The position numbers were made by a program, and so were the translations under genes. Below are positions 17,301-35,502 of a stretch of DNA of 63,543 nt, in pieces; position 1 is the first letter of the stretch; the number at the start of each line of letters is the position of its first letter. The notes beneath the pieces are model-generated. The model was not told the DNA's origin, did not search any database, and was given only the letters and a program-made list of their open reading frames with translations. The DNA is from a virus: positions 1 through 63,543 of the IMG/VR virus record IMGVR_UViG_3300043331_000481; one strand, given 5' to 3'.

Positions 17301-18703
17301 AGAAGCGTCGCAAGAACTTCCAGGCCAGCATCGACAGCTACCAGACGACCGATGGCCCCCGGTGGCGCGTGCGCGCTCGCATCGACGGCAAGCTCAAGAC
17401 GCTCGAAAGTGGTCTGCTTTCCAACGCCGCCGCGGAAGAGTTCGCCCGCGGGTACACGACGCTCCGGGCCGGACGGGAGACCATCGGCGCGCTGACGCTC
17501 GCCCAGTTCGGGGACGGTTTCCTCGAGCGACGCGAGCAGCGGGGCGTGCGCGGCATCTCCCGGGAGCGCAACCGCTGGCGGCTCCACGTCGCCGGCAAGT
17601 CGATTGGCCAGCTGCCGCTCCGATCCATCGCCCGCTCCGACCTCATCGCCTGGCGGGACGAGCTCGTCCGCTGGGGGCTCAGCAAGGCCAGCCAGGAACT
17701 CTGCCTCGTGCTGGTGCGCCAGGCGCTCGCTGACGCCCTGGACCGCGACCTCGTGGCCTCCAACCCCGCAAAGGACGTCCACGGCGTCCGGGACCGCCAG
17801 GACGTCGCCAAGAGGGAGCTCGAAGGCATCCTGACGCCAGACCTGCAGCGCCGCTTCCTCGACAAGGCGCCGACGGAGCACGCTCGGCGGGTCGTCGGCC
17901 TTGCCCTCCTGACCGGCCTCCGGCTCTCCGAGCTCCGCGAGCTGAAGTGGGAGGACGTCAAGATCGGCGCCGACCAGAAGGGGAGCCCGGTCGGACTCAT
18001 CGAGGTCCGGTATTCCGAGGGCGGCAAGGCCCCCAAGAACGGCCGGGTCCGCCAGGTGGAGCTCCTGGAGCCCGCCATTGCCATCCTGCGCGCCATGCCC
18101 AGGGTCTCGGCCTGGGTCGTCACCGGGAGCCGCAAGGGGCGCCCGCAGGCCAAGAAGCCGCTCGTGGGCTGGAAGGTCTGGCGCGCGTGGCGGAAGGCCA
18201 GCGGCATCGAGATCCGCTGGCACGACCTGCGCCACACGTGCGCCACATCGCTCCTCGCCGGGTGGTGGGGCAAGCGGTGGACCCTGGAGGCGGTGTGCTC
18301 CCACCTGGGCCATTCGTCGATCCAGGTGACCGAGCGATACGCCCGGAAGGTGCGGGACATCACCCGCTCCGAAGCGCGGGGAATGTTCCAGCAAAGTTCC
18401 AGTGAAGAGGAGACGTCGATCGTGAATGCAGCTGTTTTTACGGGAGCCAACTACTGGATTCGAACCAGCGACCTGCGCGTTACGAAAGAGAGGCTCCTGC
18501 CTGCAAAAACGCGCACATCGGACCACAAACGTGTCAGCCATGACACTGATAGGCGAGAGCGACCCGGAAAGCGCTGGAAAGGCTCCCCCGGGGCCCACGC
18601 CCTTGCCTCCGCCGCCCACCGCCTGAGCCTCCTTTCCCCCGACCACGGCTGGCCTGCCTTCCAGGCCCGGATGGTCGCGGCGTTCGATGCGGAGGTGGCG
18701 TGA
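17297..18703 (+). CDS. int: Tyrosine recombinase integrase containing attP
   Basis: This 468-residue protein is a tyrosine integrase with the catalytic set Arg209 (TGLRLSELR), His309-x-x-Arg312 (HDLRH), His336 (HLGH) and Tyr348 (TERYAR). It has an N-terminal arm-binding-like part and a core-binding domain around residues 65-165. The catalytic domain ends near residue 365, but the frame runs about 100 codons further and crosses the attP core at 18443-18487 (codons 383-397). The stop is fused to the next start as TGATG. Integration would therefore exchange the C-terminal end of the protein, as reported for phage Mx8 int. It is coupled to genes on both sides. Confidence 0.95.
   Translation: MKKRRKNFQASIDSYQTTDGPRWRVRARIDGKLKTLESGLLSNAAAEEFARGYTTLRAGRETIGALTLAQFGDGFLERREQRGVRGISRERNRWRLHVAGKSIGQLPLRSIARSDLIAWRDELVRWGLSKASQELCLVLVRQALADALDRDLVASNPAKDVHGVRDRQDVAKRELEGILTPDLQRRFLDKAPTEHARRVVGLALLTGLRLSELRELKWEDVKIGADQKGSPVGLIEVRYSEGGKAPKNGRVRQVELLEPAIAILRAMPRVSAWVVTGSRKGRPQAKKPLVGWKVWRAWRKASGIEIRWHDLRHTCATSLLAGWWGKRWTLEAVCSHLGHSSIQVTERYARKVRDITRSEARGMFQQSSSEEETSIVNAAVFTGANYWIRTSDLRVTKERLLPAKTRTSDHKRVSHDTDRRERPGKRWKGSPGAHALASAAHRLSLLSPDHGWPAFQARMVAAFDAEVA
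18385..18406 (+). repeat. Tandem 11-bp direct repeat next to attP
   Basis: GTTCCAGCAAA and GTTCCAGTGAA lie head to tail, 37 bp from the attP core. They could be arm-type integrase sites, although they also encode part of the integrase. Confidence 0.4.
18443..18487 (-). other. attP: attP core: 3' half of a tRNA-Thr(CGU) gene
   Basis: On the minus strand, 18487-18443 reads as a tRNA from anticodon loop to acceptor: TTCGTAA (CGT anticodon), stem CGCGC, variable loop AGGTC, T stem GCTGG, T loop TTCGAAT, CCAGT, acceptor AGTTGGC and discriminator T. The 5' half of a tRNA is absent. This is the expected shape of a phage attachment site that targets a host tRNA-Thr gene and restores its 3' end on integration. 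It lies inside the integrase coding region. Confidence 0.88.
18531..18546. repeat. 16-bp inverted repeat beside attP
   Basis: GTGTCAGCCATGACAC is a perfect 6-bp inverted repeat with a 4-base centre, 44 bp from the core on the other side from the 11-bp direct repeats. It is a candidate binding site for integrase, excisionase or another regulator. Confidence 0.4.
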
Positions 18704-19815
18704 TGGCCCTCCTGGTGCAGGACATTCTGCGCTCCGGCATGACGCCCGCTGAGCTGTTGGAGCGGCATGCTGTCCACATCAAACCACACGCCGGGAAGGT
18801 GTCCCTGGTGTACGACCAGATCCTCGCCAAAGACGAAGACCCGGTAGCCCAGGAATGCCGCGGACTCGTCCTGCGTGAGGGCTCATGGGATATCGTCGCC
18901 TTCCCGTTCCGGCGGTTCTTCAACCATGGGCAGCCGGCGGCGGCTTCGCTCGATTGGGCCACTGCTGCGTTCCAGCAAAAGCTCGATGGTACCCTGATCA
19001 TCGCCTACTGGGACGGCGCCTGCGGCACTTGGCACGTCGCGACCCGGAGCATGAACGAGGCGCACGGGCCCGGACATTTTGGGAAGTCGTTCCGGGAGCT
19101 CGCCGACCAAGCCGCTCGCGACATGGGGCACGGATCGCTTCTGCGGCTCCTATCCAAGGCACCGAAGGACCACACGCTCATGTTCGAGCTGACAGCACCG
19201 GAGAACCGGGTTGTCTGCGACTATGCCGAGCGTCAACTCACACTCATTGGAGCGCGTTCTCTAGTCACGCTGGAGGAAGTTGCTCCGGTGCCACTGGCCA
19301 ACGAGTTGGGCGTGTTGAGTCCTCGGACGTGGAACTTCGAAAACCTTGACGCGCTGATCGATGAGATTCGGCACTGGGATCCGCGTGAGTACGAGGGGAT
19401 CGTGGTCTGCGATGCTCGATTCAACCGAATCAAGGTCAAGTCACCACAGTACCTCGTTGCCCACCATGCCGCCGATAGCCTCGGAGCGTCTTGGCGCTCT
19501 GTCGTCGAAGCCGTGGCGAGTGGCACGGTCGACGATATCCAGGACATGCTACCGCCATTCGTTCGCGGTCGCGTGGACGTTGCGCGGGAAAAGCTTGGAG
19601 CCCTGTGCTCACAAACCGAGCTGGACTGGATGGCCCTCCGCGGGATCTCCGACATCAAGGAGTTTGCCGAACACGCAAAGAAAAGACGCTGGCCTGCTGC
19701 CCTGTTCGCACTGAAACGCGAAAAGACGCCGTCACTTGCCGACTTCCTCAAAGCGACCCAGCCCAAATCGCTAGTCGAACTCGCTGGCCTGGAAAACGAG
19801 GAGGCATCCCCGTGA
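18703..19815 (+). CDS. T4 Rnl1-like RNA ligase
   Basis: This 370-residue protein carries the nucleotidyltransferase motifs of ATP-dependent RNA ligases: motif I KLDGTL with the AMP-accepting Lys93, the upstream CRGLVL block, motif IV EYEGIVV at 229-235, and motif V RIKVKS with Lys244 and Lys246. The C-terminal 120 residues are helical, as in the Rnl1 type. GGAGG lies 7 bases before ATG 18703. Rnl1 repairs tRNAs cut by host anticodon nucleases. No polynucleotide kinase/phosphatase partner is visible in the window, so end-healing may come from the host. Confidence 0.85.
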   Translation: MALLVQDILRSGMTPAELLERHAVHIKPHAGKVSLVYDQILAKDEDPVAQECRGLVLREGSWDIVAFPFRRFFNHGQPAAASLDWATAAFQQKLDGTLIIAYWDGACGTWHVATRSMNEAHGPGHFGKSFRELADQAARDMGHGSLLRLLSKAPKDHTLMFELTAPENRVVCDYAERQLTLIGARSLVTLEEVAPVPLANELGVLSPRTWNFENLDALIDEIRHWDPREYEGIVVCDARFNRIKVKSPQYLVAHHAADSLGASWRSVVEAVASGTVDDIQDMLPPFVRGRVDVAREKLGALCSQTELDWMALRGISDIKEFAEHAKKRRWPAALFALKREKTPSLADFLKATQPKSLVELAGLENEEASP

Positions 19816-26151: not shown

Positions 26152-26691
26152 ATGGCGAAAGCCAAAGCGGCGGACGCGAAGCCCGGCAAGGGTGGGCGGA
26201 AGCCAAGGCCACAGGGCGGCGGGCGCGAGCCCGGTGTGCCCGACCATCCGCAGGAGACTCGGGACAAGTTCCGAGCGCACTACCTGCTGAGCGGTGTGGT
26301 TGCCCACTCGGCCAAGTTCGTCGGCGTGCCGGAGGGCACCTGCCACGATTGGGTCAAGGAACTGCTGGTCGACCCAGAGTTCGTCGAAGACCGCAGGGCC
26401 CAACGCGCGAAGTACCTTGAGGACATGGTCGCCATGAGGCACCGGGTGGCCATCGGCGCGCTTGAGCGCTTCGAGGCTGAGCTGGACGTCCCCGAGCAGA
26501 TCGGCGAAGGCGCCCAGGTCACCATCATCGACAAGCGGCCCGACTACGGGAAGCTCGTGCTGGACGCGGAGAAGAACGCGCACGCGCTGGCCAAGCTCGA
26601 GAAGCCCGAGGATCCGGACGCCATGCCAGGTGGCCGCGCCGAGGTGACCATCAACATCCGCGGCCCATCGACTGCGGCGGTCAGTGGGTAA
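26152..26691 (+). CDS. terS: Terminase small subunit
   Basis: This 179-residue protein directly precedes the large terminase and overlaps it by 8 bases. After a basic disordered N terminus, a helix-turn-helix-like region (FRAHYLLSGVVAHSAKFVGVPEGTCHDWVKEL, read in parts, residues 42-72) would bind the packaging site. A helical oligomerisation part (ALERFEAEL) and a beta-rich C terminus follow. The family assignment rests on architecture and position. Confidence 0.8.
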   Translation: MAKAKAADAKPGKGGRKPRPQGGGREPGVPDHPQETRDKFRAHYLLSGVVAHSAKFVGVPEGTCHDWVKELLVDPEFVEDRRAQRAKYLEDMVAMRHRVAIGALERFEAELDVPEQIGEGAQVTIIDKRPDYGKLVLDAEKNAHALAKLEKPEDPDAMPGGRAEVTINIRGPSTAAVSG

Positions 26692-28084
26692 GAAGATCGA
26701 GCTGGACTTCCAGCTCAACAGGCCGCAGTTCGACGCGTACCAGGTCTTCCGTCCTGGCGTCACCATCTTCACCGGGTGGGGCCGCGGCGTCGGCAAGAGC
26801 TGGTTTCATCGGTTCCTCTGGTGGAACCTGGTGGCTCAGTGGGACGGCGTTCTCAGGACGGAGGCGCTGAAGCCGTTCCGGGGTGTGCGCATCGCCATCC
26901 TGATGCCCACACTCAAGCAGTTCAAGGACGTCCACCTCGACGGCATCCAGAACGAGCTCGAGGGCGACTGGTCATTCCTCCGGGGCAAGGTCAACGCGCA
27001 GACCGGCTCGGTCCGATTCCCTGGTGGGAGCTGGATCAAGCCGATGCCGGCGCGGCTCTACACGTCCAAGACGGCACGCGGCTTGCGCTGTGACCTGGTC
27101 GACTCCGACGAGTGCGACGACATCGACGCCGAAGCGCATGATGGCGTTGCGGTTCCGTGGCTGTCCGAGCCCTGGTCGCTGAACATGGAGGCGATGGGCG
27201 GCACGCCAACGCGCGGCCGTCACGGTCTCTGGTGGCGCATGCTCGAGGACGGGCGCAAGGGCGCCAGGCTCCGAGCCGGTGAAGATCCCGAAGTGGTCGG
27301 CGTCGACGAAGAGAACGTCGAGGCCATCAAGTCGATCTTCGCGTTCCACGCGACCTACCGGGACGCGCCCGAGACGGTCAGCCCCAAAGCCGTCGCCAAG
27401 GCCAAGGCCACGACGCCGAAGGCCACCTTCGAGCGCGAGTGGGAGGCCAATCCCGACGCGGGTGAAGGCCTCATCTACCAGGAGTTCGACCCTGACTTCC
27501 ACGTCAGGAAGGCGCCGGACTGGTCGACCTTCAACGAGTTCTTGGTCGGCGCCGACTTCGGTGACGTCGACCCAGCTGTCCTTCTGCTCATCGGCATCCA
27601 AGGCCACGGCAACGACGCAACGGCCTGGTGCCTGGACGAATGGTATGAGCCCGGCACGCTGAACAGCGTCTGGGACGAACGCGCCAAGGTCTGGCGCAAC
27701 GCGACATTCTACCCGGACCCGAGCCGGCAAGACCGCGTCCGCGACTGGCGCTCGTTCAATCTTCGCGTCGAGGACATCCCGCCCGACGTCAAGCCCATCG
27801 CCGCCGGCATCGGGCGCGTCGCCGACATGCTCTTCCGGCGCAAGCAGGAATACGAGCGAGGGGGTGAGCTGCGTGTCCACGAGTGGGCGCACCTCTACTT
27901 CGACCCGAAGTGCAAGAACGTCATCCGCGAGATGGGGCTCTACCGGCGCAGAAAGATGCCGGACGGGAGCTTCTCTGAGGATCCGGTCGACAAGGACAAT
28001 CACGCGCTCGACGCGCTCAGGTACGCCCTCGCCAGCAGGTTTGGCCGAGCCCCCAACTCCCGCCACGTGACCTCCGGCCGATGA
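26684..28084 (+). CDS. terL: Terminase large subunit
   Basis: This 466-residue protein starts at GTG 26684. Its ATPase half has Walker A GWGRGVGKS at residues 31-39 and a Walker-B-like LVDSDECDDID near 140. Its nuclease half begins near residue 285 with VGADFGDVDP, the RNase H-like first acidic strand, and ends with an NHALDALRYAL block typical of terminases. It pumps DNA into the procapsid and cuts the concatemer. It is tightly coupled to terS and portal. Confidence 0.93.
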   Translation: MGKKIELDFQLNRPQFDAYQVFRPGVTIFTGWGRGVGKSWFHRFLWWNLVAQWDGVLRTEALKPFRGVRIAILMPTLKQFKDVHLDGIQNELEGDWSFLRGKVNAQTGSVRFPGGSWIKPMPARLYTSKTARGLRCDLVDSDECDDIDAEAHDGVAVPWLSEPWSLNMEAMGGTPTRGRHGLWWRMLEDGRKGARLRAGEDPEVVGVDEENVEAIKSIFAFHATYRDAPETVSPKAVAKAKATTPKATFEREWEANPDAGEGLIYQEFDPDFHVRKAPDWSTFNEFLVGADFGDVDPAVLLLIGIQGHGNDATAWCLDEWYEPGTLNSVWDERAKVWRNATFYPDPSRQDRVRDWRSFNLRVEDIPPDVKPIAAGIGRVADMLFRRKQEYERGGELRVHEWAHLYFDPKCKNVIREMGLYRRRKMPDGSFSEDPVDKDNHALDALRYALASRFGRAPNSRHVTSGR

Positions 28085-29820
28085 CCAACCCGAACAAAAA
28101 GCTCACTGGGCTGGAGCAGGCCAACAAGGCCGCGCTGGCCAACATGAGCCCGCGCTACCATCGGCTCGATGAGCTCGAGAAGTGGGTCGACGGCACGCAG
28201 TACAAGGGGCGGCCGGACTGGTTCACGGGCGGGCCAGCAGAGGTCCCACTTTGGGAGCGCGAGCCGTGCGTGGTCTACCCGATCGTCTCGGTGGCCATCA
28301 GCTCGAACGCTGACCTTTGCCTCGGTGAAGGGAAGTTCCCGACCTTCCAGGTCACGCACTCGGGCCAAGGTTCGGCTGGCACGGACGGCGAAGAAAAAAC
28401 CGACCCGCTGGAAGTCTGCCTCCGGCACATTCACCGGCTCTCGCGCTTCCCGACGGTCGTCAAAGACGCCTACAAGGATGGCCAAGGGTGCGGGACGGCT
28501 GTCTCGATTCTCGGGGTGCGAAACGGCATTCCGTTCCAGGACCTCGTGCCTGCCAAGTGGTGCACGCGCGAGGTCGACGCTTCGGGCCAGGTGACCAGCC
28601 TCGCCATCGAGTACCCCTACCTCGACGAGGTGAAGCAGCGGGACGGGACGTGGCAGGTCCGTGCGATGCTCTACCGGCGCGTCATCGATGCCCAGAGCGA
28701 CACGACCTACCTGCCGGCCATCGCCAACGAGAACGGCATTGCCCCATCGTGGCAGGCTGACTCAAGCAAGACCATCGAGCACGGCCTCGGGTTCTGCCCG
28801 GTCGTTTGGTACCCCTTCATGAAGGGCTGCCAAGCGGTCAACGTCATCGACGGCAAGGCCATCCACGCCAAGCTCACCGACGAGATCCAGGCGCACGACA
28901 TCGCCAGGAGCCAGTGGCATCGCGGGGCGCTCTACTCGGAACCGCAGATCTACGAGATCGGGGTCGACGGCGACCACAACCCGACGGGCCAGGGGCGCGT
29001 GGCCATGGTGCCGGCGACCGAGCATGGTGGGCCCGCGACGCCCGACAACCCCATCGTCAGCCAGTACCAAGAGGGTCCGGGACAGAGCGCCCGCAAGAAG
29101 GGCCCGAACCACGTCTGGCGCTACCCGAGCAAGGACACCAAGGTCGGCGCCATCGAGTACGCGGCCGGCGCGCTGAAGTCTCAGCAGGACAACTGCTCGG
29201 ACTTGCGGGTCAAGATCCAGGAAGCCCTCGCGGTCGTCCTGCTCGACCCCGAGAATATCAAGATGGCGTCGATGACCTCGGGCAAGGCGCTCGAAGCCCT
29301 GCGCCAGAAGCAGCTCGACCGCATCGACGAGCACCGGGACGATCTCCGGGACGGCTTCATCGTGCCGAGCATCATCATGCAGCTCCGGCTGCTGAAGAAG
29401 CTGGGCACGCAGATGAAGGTGCCCGGCGTGGAAGAGGCGGTCGCTGCGCTTGGTCCTGCCCAGGAGTTCTCGGCGCCGGACGTCCAGGTCACCTGGGGCA
29501 GCTACTTCAAGGCCGACCCGGCCGAGCAGCTGCAGCTCATTCAGATGGTCAAAGAGGCCCTGAAAGACCTGCCGCTCATCACCAAGAAGCTGGCGGTCGA
29601 GAAGATCGCTCCCATCTTCGGCATCAAGGACATCGACGCCCTGATGCATGAACTCGAAAAGGAAGCCACGGAGCGCGAGGCCAAGCTGGCCACCGAGCTT
29701 CGGCTGATGCGCGATGAGCCTGGCGGAGCAGTTTCGAGCAATCCTGCAGCAGCATCAGCGGGTGGCAATCGTCGGGGGCCCAAGGATGGGCAAGTCGACG
29801 CTGTCCAGGACGGCGACTGA
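28081..29820 (+). CDS. Portal protein
   Basis: This 579-residue protein immediately follows terL and has the usual portal size. Recognisable features are PLWEREPCVVYPIVSVAISS near the N terminus, a long alpha/beta core, and a helical stem and crown region from about 370 (KSQQDNCSDLRVKI, MTSGKALEALRQKQ). It forms the twelve-fold ring through which DNA enters. The 3' end overlaps the P-loop gene by 107 bases. Confidence 0.88.
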   Translation: MTNPNKKLTGLEQANKAALANMSPRYHRLDELEKWVDGTQYKGRPDWFTGGPAEVPLWEREPCVVYPIVSVAISSNADLCLGEGKFPTFQVTHSGQGSAGTDGEEKTDPLEVCLRHIHRLSRFPTVVKDAYKDGQGCGTAVSILGVRNGIPFQDLVPAKWCTREVDASGQVTSLAIEYPYLDEVKQRDGTWQVRAMLYRRVIDAQSDTTYLPAIANENGIAPSWQADSSKTIEHGLGFCPVVWYPFMKGCQAVNVIDGKAIHAKLTDEIQAHDIARSQWHRGALYSEPQIYEIGVDGDHNPTGQGRVAMVPATEHGGPATPDNPIVSQYQEGPGQSARKKGPNHVWRYPSKDTKVGAIEYAAGALKSQQDNCSDLRVKIQEALAVVLLDPENIKMASMTSGKALEALRQKQLDRIDEHRDDLRDGFIVPSIIMQLRLLKKLGTQMKVPGVEEAVAALGPAQEFSAPDVQVTWGSYFKADPAEQLQLIQMVKEALKDLPLITKKLAVEKIAPIFGIKDIDALMHELEKEATEREAKLATELRLMRDEPGGAVSSNPAAASAGGNRRGPKDGQVDAVQDGD

Positions 29821-30157
29821 TCGAATCATCATCGGCAGCGACGCCTACCGCGAGCTCGACTGGGGCGACATCCCGGCAGCGATGATTCGCGACGCCGGCA
29901 AGTACGACAGCTTCGTAATCGAAGGCGTCCAGGTGGCGCGAGCTCTGCGTGGTCCGCGCGACGGGAGCGTCCGCAAGCTCGGCCTGGACGTGGACGCCAT
30001 CATCTACCTTCGGCAGCCCAAGGTCCCGCTCGCGGAGATGCTCCCGGGTCAGCTCGCCATGGCGAAGGCGGTCAGGACCATCTTCGACGACTGGCACCGA
30101 ACACTCGCGCGTCCACCAGCGATCTACGAAGAGCCCCAGGTCATCCCAGGAACATGA
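29714..30157 (+). CDS. P-loop NTPase overlapping the portal gene
   Basis: This 147-residue protein has a clear Walker A, IVGGPRMGKST at about residues 19-29, and resembles small nucleoside or nucleotide kinases (IIIGSDAYRELDW, FVIEGVQVARAL, AIIYLRQPKVPL). The first 107 bases are read in a second frame inside the portal gene. A kinase-like NTPase in the head module is unusual; it could phosphorylate a nucleotide or protein, or be a degenerate DNA-packaging factor. The substrate cannot be told from sequence. Confidence 0.75.
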   Translation: MSLAEQFRAILQQHQRVAIVGGPRMGKSTLSRTATDRIIIGSDAYRELDWGDIPAAMIRDAGKYDSFVIEGVQVARALRGPRDGSVRKLGLDVDAIIYLRQPKVPLAEMLPGQLAMAKAVRTIFDDWHRTLARPPAIYEEPQVIPGT

Positions 30158-30501: not shown

Positions 30502-30870
30502 ATGGCAGTCGTAGCAGCCACCATCAAGGAAGTTCACCTCGTCGACGGCAACCAGAACCAGCTGAATCCAGCCCGCAAGGGCTACCGCTTGGTGCTCAGC
30601 CTCGGAACGCAGACTGCGGGTGACACATTCGCGGTCGTGACGGCCAACAGCAAGATGGCAGAAAAGATCAGGTCCGGAAAGACCATCACGCTGCGCGAAG
30701 CGTCGGGTAGCGTGGGCGGTTTCACCCCGGGCGGCACGTCGGCCTACGCCTTCGGCGTCACGGTCTCCGGCACCACGCTGTCGGGATCCATCGGCAGCTC
30801 CACCGGAGTGGCCGCCGCCGTGGCTTCCGGCACCACGGCTTCCGTCTACGTGACGGTGGACGAGTCCTGA
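30502..30870 (+). CDS. Probable head decoration-type protein
   Basis: This 122-residue protein starts MAVVAATIKEVHLVDGNQNQ and is rich in Gly, Ser, Thr and Val (VSGTTLSGSIGSSTGVAAAV). This is a beta-sandwich-like composition typical of virion surface or decoration proteins. AAGGAA precedes the ATG. The assignment is from composition and position. Confidence 0.65.
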   Translation: MAVVAATIKEVHLVDGNQNQLNPARKGYRLVLSLGTQTAGDTFAVVTANSKMAEKIRSGKTITLREASGSVGGFTPGGTSAYAFGVTVSGTTLSGSIGSSTGVAAAVASGTTASVYVTVDES

Positions 30871-31331: not shown

Positions 31332-33356
31332 ATGGGTCGTCTGGAGAGAAAGCCGCGCGTCGTCCTGACGATGATCGTCCGGAACGAGGCGAAGGTGATC
31401 CGCCGGTGCCTCGAGTCGGTGCTCCCGTACATCGACGCGTGGGCCATCTCCGACACGGGCTCGACCGACGGCACCCAGGACATCATCCGCGAGATCATGG
31501 GCGACCTGCCCGGGGTTCTCATCGAGCGTCCCTGGGTCGACTTCTCGACGAATCGGAACGAAGCCATCGAGGCTGGCTTGGCCTTCGAGCCCGACTGGTT
31601 CATGACGCTGGACGCCGACGAGGTGTTCACGCCAGGGCCCGGGTTCGAGCTCGAGCTCTCCTGCGACATCCACAATGTGATGTTCCGTATGGCTGGCACT
31701 GACGCCCGCTGGCCGCGCCGAGCGTTCTTCCGCCCGCACCTCCGATACCGCTTCGTCCTGGACGAGGTCATCGAGGACGGCGAGACGCAGGACACGCTCT
31801 CCGCCTGCGAGGTGGTGAGCCACACGGACGGTGCACGCTCCGCCGAAGGGCTCATCGCGAAGTACAACCGCGACGTCGAGGTCCTCCAGCGCGCAGTCGA
31901 GCGCGAGCCCGACGAGCCGCGCTACTGGTTCTACTTGGCCCAGCGCCTCATGGGTGCTCGCAGGTGGGGCGAGGCTCTGGCTGCCTACGAGAGGCGGCTC
32001 GAGCTCCAAGGCTTCGACGAGGAGCGCTTCCAGTCCGCGTTCATGATTGGCCAGATCCGCGAGGAGATGGGCGATCCGGATCTGGACAGCATCGCCCGCC
32101 AGTACCAGGTGGCCTGGCAGATGCGCCCCGAGCGCGCCGAGCCACTCTTTGCGCTGGCCTGCCTGCACTCCCAAGCCGGCGAGCACGCTCTGGCCGAAGT
32201 CTACGCCCGCGCGGCGCAAAGGCTCCCGCGGCCACCGAGCGGCCTGCCGGTGGACGACTCGGTCTACGCCTGGCGGGCAGTGGACCTCCTGGCCGGCTCC
32301 CTCTCTGAGCAGGGCAAGACTGCCGAGGCGCTCCAACTCCTCGAAAAGCTCGAGCCACTACCCCAACTTCCCGACTCGGAGCGCGAGCGGGTCCGCGAGA
32401 ACATCGCAAGCCTTCGGGCTGCGCTTGGCCCGACGCCAGAGTTCCTGGGCGCCGACGAGGCAGCCTACCAAGACCAGGCCGCGCGCGTCCGCGACAAGGG
32501 CGCCGGCGGCTTTCGCGCTCTGGCTCGCGACTACCTGTCCAACCCCGGCCGCCAAGCACTCCCCGGGCCCGTGCGCTGGCTCTGGATCCTCATGCTCCGC
32601 TGGTTCGGCCGGCACGTGACCGAAGTCGCCGCGCTGGCCTGCATCCCGGCTCTCTGGTGGGCGACGCTCCCATTCGGCGGTCACGCTCTCGTGGCGGCCA
32701 TGAGCCCGCTGCTCTTGCTCCTGAGCGGCCGAGTCCTGCAAGACACGACCGTCGCCGCGCTGACTCTGACGGCCATCGGAGCTGCGGCCGCCGGCAATCC
32801 CTGGGCGCTCGCTCTGGCCGTTCTCGCGCTCGGGGCCACCAAGGAGGCCTCCGTCCTGACTGCTCCGGCCGTCGCGTTCGCGTGGTGGTGCTCCGGTGCT
32901 TCGTGGGCCTGGTTTGCAGGCGCGGCCGCTGCCGGCGCTGGCCTTGCTGCACTGGGCGGGCTCGCTCTCCTTCGCGGCGCCTGGTGGCCAGCCCTGAAAG
33001 CTGGCGCCAAGGGCCACATCACCCCCTACACGCAGGCTCAACAGCAAGGCGCCCCGCATCGGCTCCTGGTGGACCTGGTTCTGGTCTCGCCCGTGGCGAC
33101 GCTGATGGGGCTCTTTGGCGATTGGCGCTTGGTTGTTCTGGTCGGGCTTTTGCTCGGCGCCCATGCGCTCGCTCCGGTGCGGAACGTTCGGCTCGTGCTC
33201 GCGGCAGACCTCCTGCTCCGCGCCTCGGCGGTTTCTGCGTTCGGCTGGTGGGCTCTGCTCACCGTGCCCGCCGACGTCTTCATCTACCGACGCCTTCGCG
33301 GCGTCTACGACCCAGTGACGAGCGTTCTCGCTCGTGAGCTGGGCATGTCTCGATAG
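31332..33356 (+). CDS. Glycosyltransferase fusion: GT2 + TPR + polytopic membrane domain
   Basis: This 674-residue protein has three parts. Residues 1-170 form a family-2 glycosyltransferase (VVLTMIVRNEAKVIRRCLES, SDTGSTDGTQD at 40-50, LDADEVF with the metal-binding DxD at 94-96). Residues about 175-390 are TPR-like helical repeats (YWFYLAQRLMGA, GEALAAYERRLEL). Residues about 410-655 hold roughly eight membrane segments and a TKEASVLTAPA motif near 506-516 that resembles GT-C transferases. It would act at the inner membrane on a lipid-linked sugar. It lies in the head gene cluster, where such a protein is unexpected, and may modify surface polysaccharide after infection. Confidence 0.85.
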   Translation: MGRLERKPRVVLTMIVRNEAKVIRRCLESVLPYIDAWAISDTGSTDGTQDIIREIMGDLPGVLIERPWVDFSTNRNEAIEAGLAFEPDWFMTLDADEVFTPGPGFELELSCDIHNVMFRMAGTDARWPRRAFFRPHLRYRFVLDEVIEDGETQDTLSACEVVSHTDGARSAEGLIAKYNRDVEVLQRAVEREPDEPRYWFYLAQRLMGARRWGEALAAYERRLELQGFDEERFQSAFMIGQIREEMGDPDLDSIARQYQVAWQMRPERAEPLFALACLHSQAGEHALAEVYARAAQRLPRPPSGLPVDDSVYAWRAVDLLAGSLSEQGKTAEALQLLEKLEPLPQLPDSERERVRENIASLRAALGPTPEFLGADEAAYQDQAARVRDKGAGGFRALARDYLSNPGRQALPGPVRWLWILMLRWFGRHVTEVAALACIPALWWATLPFGGHALVAAMSPLLLLLSGRVLQDTTVAALTLTAIGAAAAGNPWALALAVLALGATKEASVLTAPAVAFAWWCSGASWAWFAGAAAAGAGLAALGGLALLRGAWWPALKAGAKGHITPYTQAQQQGAPHRLLVDLVLVSPVATLMGLFGDWRLVVLVGLLLGAHALAPVRNVRLVLAADLLLRASAVSAFGWWALLTVPADVFIYRRLRGVYDPVTSVLARELGMSR

Positions 33357-33362
33357 TACCAA

Positions 33363-33647
33363 ATGGCCATCAAACCCGTCGGCGACACCGTCGCAGTCCG
33401 ATTCGTCGAGCTGAGCAGCGAAGAGCTGCAGAAGGCACGCGATAGCTGGAATCAGCCCGGGCCGCGCCCAGTCGACGAGGATCCGATTCTTGCAGTCATC
33501 TACGGTTTGGGGACCGAGGTGACGCGCAAGGGCTTCAAGAAGGGCGACACCGTCCTCTTGCGCCCGTACGCAGTCAACGGCTCAGAGCTAAGCGAGGGCA
33601 TTTATGCCGTCGACCCCTGGTCCGTGATGGCTGTTGTGACCGAGTAG
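33363..33647 (+). CDS. GroES-like co-chaperonin
   Basis: This 94-residue protein resembles GroES in size and layout. MAIKPVGDTVAVRFVE matches the first strands, ILAVIYGLG resembles the 'GEVLAVG' turn, KKGDTVLLRPYAVNG resembles 'KVGDIVIF..YG', and the end YAVDPWSVMAVV matches the final strand. The region 20-40 could be the mobile loop that contacts GroEL. It sits just before scaffold and major capsid genes, as expected for a capsid-folding helper analogous to T4 gp31. The match is by eye. Confidence 0.6.
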   Translation: MAIKPVGDTVAVRFVELSSEELQKARDSWNQPGPRPVDEDPILAVIYGLGTEVTRKGFKKGDTVLLRPYAVNGSELSEGIYAVDPWSVMAVVTE

Positions 33648-33703: not shown

Positions 33704-34369
33704 ATGACGACCGAAGCATCGGGCGGCGCACCTGCGCCTGTCCAACCAGCACCTGTGCCTGCACCAGCGGCAACGCCTCCGGCGGCCGCCACTCCGGCGC
33801 CTCCTGCCAAGGACCCGGACGAACAAGCCGCATGGCTGAAGGGCAGGCTGGAACAAGCCCGCACGGCTGCCAACAAGGCCCTTCTGGCGGAACTCGGCGT
33901 CGACGACGCCGCCAAGGCCAAGGCCTTCATCGAGGCCGGGCTCGCTGCCGAGAACGAGAAAAAGTCGCTGGCCGAGAAGCTTGCTGAGCAGGCAACGGCG
34001 CTCACGACCACCAAGGCACAGGCCGAGAAGTACTCCGGAATCATCGCCCAGCAGGCATCGGCGCAAATGAGCGCCTTGTCGGCAGAACAGCAGGCCGCCG
34101 TCAAAGCCATCGCTGGCGAAGATCCAGCGGAGCAACTGCGCGCCGTCATCGCGCTCGCTCCGACTTGGAAGGCGGCCCCGGTCACCGAGACGCCAGGACA
34201 GAAGCCAGCAGCGTCTCCTCCTGCGTCCACCGCAGCCACAGTCGGCGGACCACCGCCGGCAGGTTCGACGTCACCGCCAGACCACAAGGCGGAATTCGAA
34301 AAACTCCAACAGACCAACCCTGTTGCTGCGGCCCGATACGCCCGCGCGCATCGGGTCTTCCAGAGCTGA
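33704..34369 (+). CDS. Capsid scaffolding protein
   Basis: This 221-residue protein has the typical scaffold make-up. Proline/alanine-rich disordered ends (APAPVQPAPVPAPAATPPA) flank a charged coiled-coil centre (residues about 40-140; EQARTAANKALLAEL, EKLAEQATALTTTKAQAEK). It lies immediately before the major capsid gene. No protease domain is present, so scaffold release may not need cleavage. Confidence 0.85.
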   Translation: MTTEASGGAPAPVQPAPVPAPAATPPAAATPAPPAKDPDEQAAWLKGRLEQARTAANKALLAELGVDDAAKAKAFIEAGLAAENEKKSLAEKLAEQATALTTTKAQAEKYSGIIAQQASAQMSALSAEQQAAVKAIAGEDPAEQLRAVIALAPTWKAAPVTETPGQKPAASPPASTAATVGGPPPAGSTSPPDHKAEFEKLQQTNPVAAARYARAHRVFQS

Positions 34370-34425: not shown

Positions 34426-35502
34426 ATGCCCTTCTCGCAAGCCGAAAACCCCACCAATTTCTACACCGCCACCAGCACGCAGCTCCTCGACGCGCCCGAG
34501 CCGCAGTTCCTCTACGCCGACCTGTTCATCCGGGCCATCGGCGCAAGCCTGCCGGTCCCAGCAGATCTCGGTGTTGCTCCGGCTGGCACCGGTGCTCCCT
34601 ACGGCAGCGCGGAGGATGGCCGACTGATTCTGGCCGACCCGATCAGCACGTCGCTCTTCTCGGTGAACGTGGACTTCACGGGTCAGCCGGGGAGCAGCAT
34701 CCGCGTGAACCGCCCGGCATACGTCGACACGACCTACACGGCGTCGAGCCGTATCGTGCCGAGCGGCGCGACCATCACCACGACCCCGGCGCCGAGCCCC
34801 GGCGGGCAGCAAGCGAACCTGACGCTCGAGCGGTACGCGGGGCCCTACGACACGGTGAATAGCCGCGTTGCGCCGTACCTCATCGACAACTTCGACAACC
34901 AGCTCGGCATCCACAGCGGCGACAGCATCCACAGCCGCCACCTGGTCCGGGACTTCCACAAGACCCTCGACAGCTTCATGGTCACGCTGCTGGACCTCGG
35001 CAGCACCGCCGTCTACCCGGTCGGCGTCTCGACGGTCGACCAGATGAACACGCTGGGCGACTACCCGTTCAGCTTGGAGCAGCTGACCCGCACCGAGCGG
35101 CTCATGGACGAGGCCCACCTGCCTGTCCTTCCCGATGGGCGCCGGATCCTCGTGCTCACGGCGCGCCAGGTTGCCGACCTCGGACTCGACTCGAACTACA
35201 TGAAGCTGTCCGAGGCGCACCCGCAGTTCAATCGGCTGTTCCCGCAGTACGTGAAGGCCGTTGCCGGCTTCCACATCTTCAAATCGACCACGCTGAGCCA
35301 GACGGCCAACAGTTCCTCGGTTGCCGTCCAGTACGGCCACGCCATCGCTCCAGGCTGCCTCATGGGCGGCATGGGCAGGGCGCCGCGCATCGCTCCGAGC
35401 GATCTCACCAACCACGGCGAGTCGAAGATGGTGGTGTGGATCGCCTACCTGGCGCTCGCGCTCGCCAACAACGCCTTCGTCCTCTCGGTGCGCTCCGCCT
35501 GA
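34426..35502 (+). CDS. Major capsid protein
   Basis: This 358-residue protein follows the scaffold gene. Its C-terminal part (LPDGRRILVLTARQVADLGLDS, FHIFKSTTLSQ, SKMVVWIAYLALALANNAFVLS) fits HK97-fold capsid proteins of the type without a delta domain. There is no obvious protease cleavage site. An unusual 11-bp hairpin follows the gene at 35509-35538. Confidence 0.88.
   Translation: MPFSQAENPTNFYTATSTQLLDAPEPQFLYADLFIRAIGASLPVPADLGVAPAGTGAPYGSAEDGRLILADPISTSLFSVNVDFTGQPGSSIRVNRPAYVDTTYTASSRIVPSGATITTTPAPSPGGQQANLTLERYAGPYDTVNSRVAPYLIDNFDNQLGIHSGDSIHSRHLVRDFHKTLDSFMVTLLDLGSTAVYPVGVSTVDQMNTLGDYPFSLEQLTRTERLMDEAHLPVLPDGRRILVLTARQVADLGLDSNYMKLSEAHPQFNRLFPQYVKAVAGFHIFKSTTLSQTANSSSVAVQYGHAIAPGCLMGGMGRAPRIAPSDLTNHGESKMVVWIAYLALALANNAFVLSVRSA

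Follow-up and report, generated by a model that had tools for sequence, protein, structure and literature searches.

The window analysed here, i.e. the whole stretch of 63,543 nucleotides, is a 63.5-kb virus contig with a G+C content of about 65%. The genes and features of its head operon that matter for the following analysis are these:

26684..28084, plus strand: large terminase gene, 466 aa (PF17288, 1e-6; phrog_2, 4.3e-23)
28081..29820, plus strand: portal protein gene, 579 aa (phrog_104, E 0.012; relatives)
30502..30870, plus strand: gene for a 122-aa protein; in many relatives the scaffold gene is preceded by a related gene
31332..33356, plus strand: gene for a 674-aa protein with GT2 glycosyltransferase, TPR and C-terminal hydrophobic part, directly upstream of the GroES-like gene
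33363..33647, plus strand: GroES/Cpn10-fold gene, 94 aa (from the ORF, homologues, family profile and predicted fold)
33414..33482, plus strand: codons 18-40, the place of the mobile loop, acidic, with no hydrophobic tripeptide and with a helix predicted at residues 19-30 (alignment, AlphaFold2)
33504..33545, plus strand: codons 48-61 (GLGTEVTRKGFKKG), corresponding to the roof hairpin of GroES, which is absent here (alignment)
33704..34369, plus strand: scaffold-like gene, 221 aa (matches phrog_2303, head scaffolding protein, with E 0.0055; 46 loci share this layout)
34426..35502, plus strand: major capsid protein gene, 358 aa (58 related loci; relatives match phrog_1357 major head protein)

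The 94-aa ORF at 33363-33647 has an ATG start and is separated by 6 bp from the stop codon of the preceding gene. Homologues that are 74% and 70% identical to the window protein occupy the corresponding position in two further phage contigs; related loci or contigs compared with the window are labelled L001, L002 and so on. Against the L001 homologue, the differences at codon positions 1, 2 and 3 amount to 19, 13 and 51 over 94 codons, a third-position bias which indicates that 33363-33647 is a gene under purifying selection. Its place directly before the genes for scaffold and major capsid protein, pointed out in the initial annotation, was confirmed and is kept across the family: in all members the GroES-like gene lies just upstream of the scaffold gene, followed by the capsid gene, and in L022 it and the scaffold gene are about 560 bp apart, with nothing but short ORFs in between. 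The capsid protein of the window itself (34426-35502) has no direct family match in Pfam or PHROGs and was identified through its relatives. A Cpn60/GroEL gene was found neither in the window nor in 15 relatives.

The resemblance of the 94-aa protein to GroES spans its whole length, with a sub-threshold match for the single sequence: Pfam Cpn10 (PF00166) reaches E 0.22 and 12 bits against the window protein alone, below the cut-off of 21.1. Single-sequence searches of Pfam, PHROGs and the PDB with this protein gave no significant match (best PDB match Cpn11, E 0.046), and a Cpn10 search across the record gave none at E 0.001. With the window protein or a 3-sequence alignment as query, scans of viral and genome contigs returned only two relatives and scans of bacterial genomes none; among GenBank phages there was no relative and one weak match, to Vibrio phage 1.232. 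The family was gathered via the neighbouring portal and capsid proteins, and a profile search of the ORFs in those related head operons yielded 24 matches, condensed to 14 members. Used as a 14-row profile against the PDB, this family matches Cpn11 (1.7e-8), GroES (5.3e-5 and 6.5e-5) and Thermus Cpn10 (8.6e-4). Seven of its 14 members match Pfam Cpn10 (best 2.4e-6), one member exceeding the cut-off with 27 bits, while phrog_3188 (co-chaperonin GroES) matches five members and NCBIfam GroES models match several. In the alignment, the N-terminal IKP and the C-terminal strand pattern of GroES are kept.

An AlphaFold2 model built with the family alignment shows a GroES beta-barrel (pLDDT 87, pTM 0.78); a model from three sequences was discarded (pLDDT 39.5). 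The first 30 Foldseek matches in the PDB are all co-chaperonins, with T4 gp31 (1g31) at rank 7, and the named top structural matches in BFVD are phage or viral co-chaperonins. In VIA-align, the model scores Z 9.2 against M. tuberculosis Cpn10 and Z 8.1 against T4 gp31 (84 residues aligned). A Z near 8 is about background by the tool's own note, but the top rows are consistently co-chaperonins, in agreement with the profile result; the GroES-like domains of alcohol dehydrogenases rank lower, at Z 6 and below. The strands of the ring interface appear conserved in the family alignment. Judged from sequence and model, membership of the window family in the Cpn10/GroES superfamily holds, with significance at the level of the family and not of the window protein alone. 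With a family profile match and a predicted barrel both found, the end-to-end likeness to GroES that had initially been noted by eye is borne out. Coincidental resemblance without any relation, which the single-sequence E-value and the low pLDDT of the 3-sequence model would suit, is practically refuted by the profile matches of the family and by its predicted fold, and we assign it next to no probability.

A possible mobile loop had been placed at residues 20-40. This position is upheld by the alignment, in which the stretch from about 17 to 40 of the window protein aligns with the GroES mobile loop, but the character of the loop is not, as the hydrophobic tripeptide is missing and AlphaFold2 predicts a helix at residues 19-30, where the GroES loop is mobile. 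A motif of G/S/A plus three hydrophobic residues occurs in 0/13 family members tested, compared to 10/10 reference co-chaperonins (E. coli GroES, T4 gp31 and eight phage GroES, with forms such as GG-IVL and SG-LII). The nominal Fisher p of 9e-7 for this contrast ignores relatedness, and since the eight references were found via their similarity to E. coli GroES, the sample leans towards keeping the tripeptide; gp31 was chosen independently of that similarity. The net charge of the loop ranges from -4 to -13 in the members and from 0 to -5 in the references. In E. coli GroES, the IVL residues contact helices H and I of GroEL, and the L27A variant, altered in the tripeptide, is unable to interact with GroEL (PMC3514286). 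Within the predicted helix, L22, A25 and W29 are invariant among the three closest sequences and could form an alternative GroEL anchor in the window's subfamily. The roof hairpin is likewise missing in the family, as it is in gp31 and in the protein of Bacteroides phage DAC20 (alignment). Gp31 has no roof loops and a longer mobile loop, and the GroEL-gp31 chamber is larger and folds gp23 (PMC6318259). As gp31 is roofless and yet a true GroEL co-chaperonin, the missing roof loops are no argument against GroEL.

The gene shows a patchy distribution among related head operons. On a tree of capsid proteins (47 rows) its presence requires nine changes, at least eight of them forced by well-supported branches; as a check on co-inheritance with the scaffold gene, the scaffold tree, which is too weakly resolved for a conclusion, requires eight, only two of which are forced. 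The five closest capsid proteins (L015-L018, L059) come from loci without the GroES-like gene, and where whole contigs of gene-less relatives were searched, no copy was found elsewhere. L035, with the gene, and L066, without it, form a natural pair for comparing presence and absence against nearly the same capsid protein: they are colinear, their capsid proteins are 89% identical, and the 69-kb contig of L066, which may be incomplete, carries no GroES-like gene at this locus or at any other. DNA similarity between the two breaks off over the GroES-like gene and the scaffold gene's 5' part. The GroES-like proteins of the window, L001 and L002 are 70-85% identical, while the corresponding capsid proteins form no clade (AU p 6e-6), so that one GroES-like subfamily spans three capsid backgrounds. 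Between window and L001, identity falls from 90% for the terminase and 74% for the GroES-like protein to 59% for the portal, 42% for the capsid and 33% for the scaffold protein. Patchiness, incongruence with the capsid tree and these identity levels together argue that the GroES-like gene is not linked to any single capsid protein. The initial annotation had invoked the T4 case, in which the phage replaces GroES to fold its capsid; in that form the proposal is not supported, given a tripeptide absent in 13 of 13 tested members, a relative that does without the gene despite an 89% identical capsid protein, and a gene that is more conserved than the capsid protein and phylogenetically uncoupled from it.

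Compared to known systems, the family shares with T4 gp31 (1g31, 2cgt) the GroES-fold barrel, the lack of a roof hairpin and the phage origin, gp31 serving head morphogenesis. Gp31 differs in that its loop has SG-LII, in that it is needed to fold its own capsid protein, in contrast to the gene-less L066, and in that it is only about 20% identical to the window protein and does not lie beside the capsid genes in T4. Bacterial GroES/Cpn10 (PF00166) matches the family end to end in profile and fold, including IKP and C-terminal strand, whereas the family has neither the GG-IVL tripeptide nor the roof hairpin and the window protein stays below the Pfam cut-off. Chloroplast Cpn11 (Chlamydomonas, 7ekq), the best sequence match of the family, is also short at the roof, but has GGILL in its loop, and its structure comes from a complex with ClpP. 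The GroES-like protein of phage DAC20 (QIG64013; 87 aa), roofless as well, keeps SG-III in the loop. Such genes had been called rare in phages of this size, which roughly holds in terms of counts (90 of the 50,697 phage records give a match to E. coli GroES), but Shewanella phage 1/44 and Vibrio phage 1.049, both at 45-50 kb, are clear precedents whose structural operons include the gene. In these small tailed phages GroES lies between the tail-completion and major tail genes and keeps both GG-IVL and roof, whereas the gene of the window family lies before the scaffold gene. Pseudoalteromonas siphovirus B8b also carries a co-chaperonin gene in its structural operon (PMC4294664). With siphophage co-chaperonins in structural operons thus on record (1/44, 1.049, B8b), the kind is already known; new here is a divergent subfamily with a fixed place before the scaffold gene and a family-wide loss of the GroEL anchor.

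A GroES-like family that lacks the hydrophobic hook for gripping GroEL probably helps to build heads in a way other than that of T4. Our preferred reading, to which we give a probability of roughly 0.45, sees the window protein as a divergent, roofless Cpn10/GroES member that a siphovirus-like phage encodes in its late head operon and that assists head assembly as an optional factor, without the canonical IVL docking on GroEL. Hereby, the protein would be made together with the head proteins and might still form a ring via its conserved N-terminal (xIKP) and C-terminal strands; as the most likely way of action, suggested by gene position, the ring or its acidic loop would directly contact a head-module protein such as scaffold or capsid protein during prohead assembly. 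A more far-reaching version, in which the fold has become GroEL-independent altogether and a roofless ring with acidic loops acts directly on scaffold or capsid, would be the first case of a GroES fold outside the chaperonin system in virus assembly; we consider it rather unlikely. Phage co-chaperonins have been explained by one mechanism, the replacement of the lid of host GroEL, and a head-operon family with the lid fold but without the GroEL grip would point either to a second way of binding GroEL or to a new use of the fold in assembly.

Quite possible, although we are inclined to doubt it, is a co-chaperonin acting in the manner of gp31, namely a heptameric lid that sits on host GroEL via a non-canonical loop and provides a larger, open-topped cage for head proteins. 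The co-chaperonin fold and family and the location in the head operon agree with it, as does the missing roof, since in gp31 the absence of roof loops widens the dome (PMC6318259). Moreover, a gene that is better conserved than capsid and scaffold (74% vs 42% and 33% between window and L001) across three capsid backgrounds is expected with a conserved host partner, but from the sequences this conservation would fit a general assembly role equally well. Loops diverge fast, and GroEL could be bound via another motif; the window protein may have GroEL-dependent co-chaperonin activity. What speaks against it is that the tripeptide is present in every reference, gp31 included, and in no member tested, that the loop is acidic with a helix predicted where GroES is mobile, and that the gene is dispensable with a nearly identical capsid protein (L035/L066).

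A host-directed role, in which the protein would inhibit or redirect GroEL or another heptameric ring, for instance ClpP, by binding to it, appears improbable. Cpn11, the best sequence match, was indeed solved in a ClpP complex and the patchy, accessory distribution would suit such a function; against this, the family lacks the hydrophobic loop anchors used by such lids (GGILL in the Cpn11 alignment), keeps a strict place in the late head operon and has no match in a defence-system library, which leaves out counter-defence. Patchy presence is also common among decoration proteins. Together with the position between structural genes, this might suggest a virion component, i.e. a small barrel in the head such as a decoration or plug, but with no match to a decoration or head-completion family and homology to Cpn10 only, we regard this as very improbable.

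Several further observations concern the same region. Between L035 (3789-4571) and L066, the GroES-like gene differs in presence and the scaffold gene has diverged in its 5' part, which looks like the exchange of a single block. The gene-less L036-L043, L070 and L072 have other small ORFs at this position, which are unlike the family by profile; in L036, L038, L040 and L043, several small lysine-rich ORFs lie about 950-1450 bp before the capsid gene, with sizes of e.g. 139-157 aa and 57-60 aa. The GT2 and TPR protein at 31332-33356, located inside the head operon, has a long hydrophobic C-terminal half; fusions of similar size occupy the same place in L009, L015-L018 and L059, which are without the GroES-like gene, and in L007 the gene is split into two ORFs. 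At 29714-30157, a 147-aa ORF with a P-loop-like start (GGPRMGKST) overlaps the end of the portal gene, and a similar ORF lies at the same place in L006, L009 and L010. Finally, 18700-19812 gives a 371-aa match to phrog_562, the family annotated as RNA ligase / tail-fibre attachment catalyst (E 1.9e-39).
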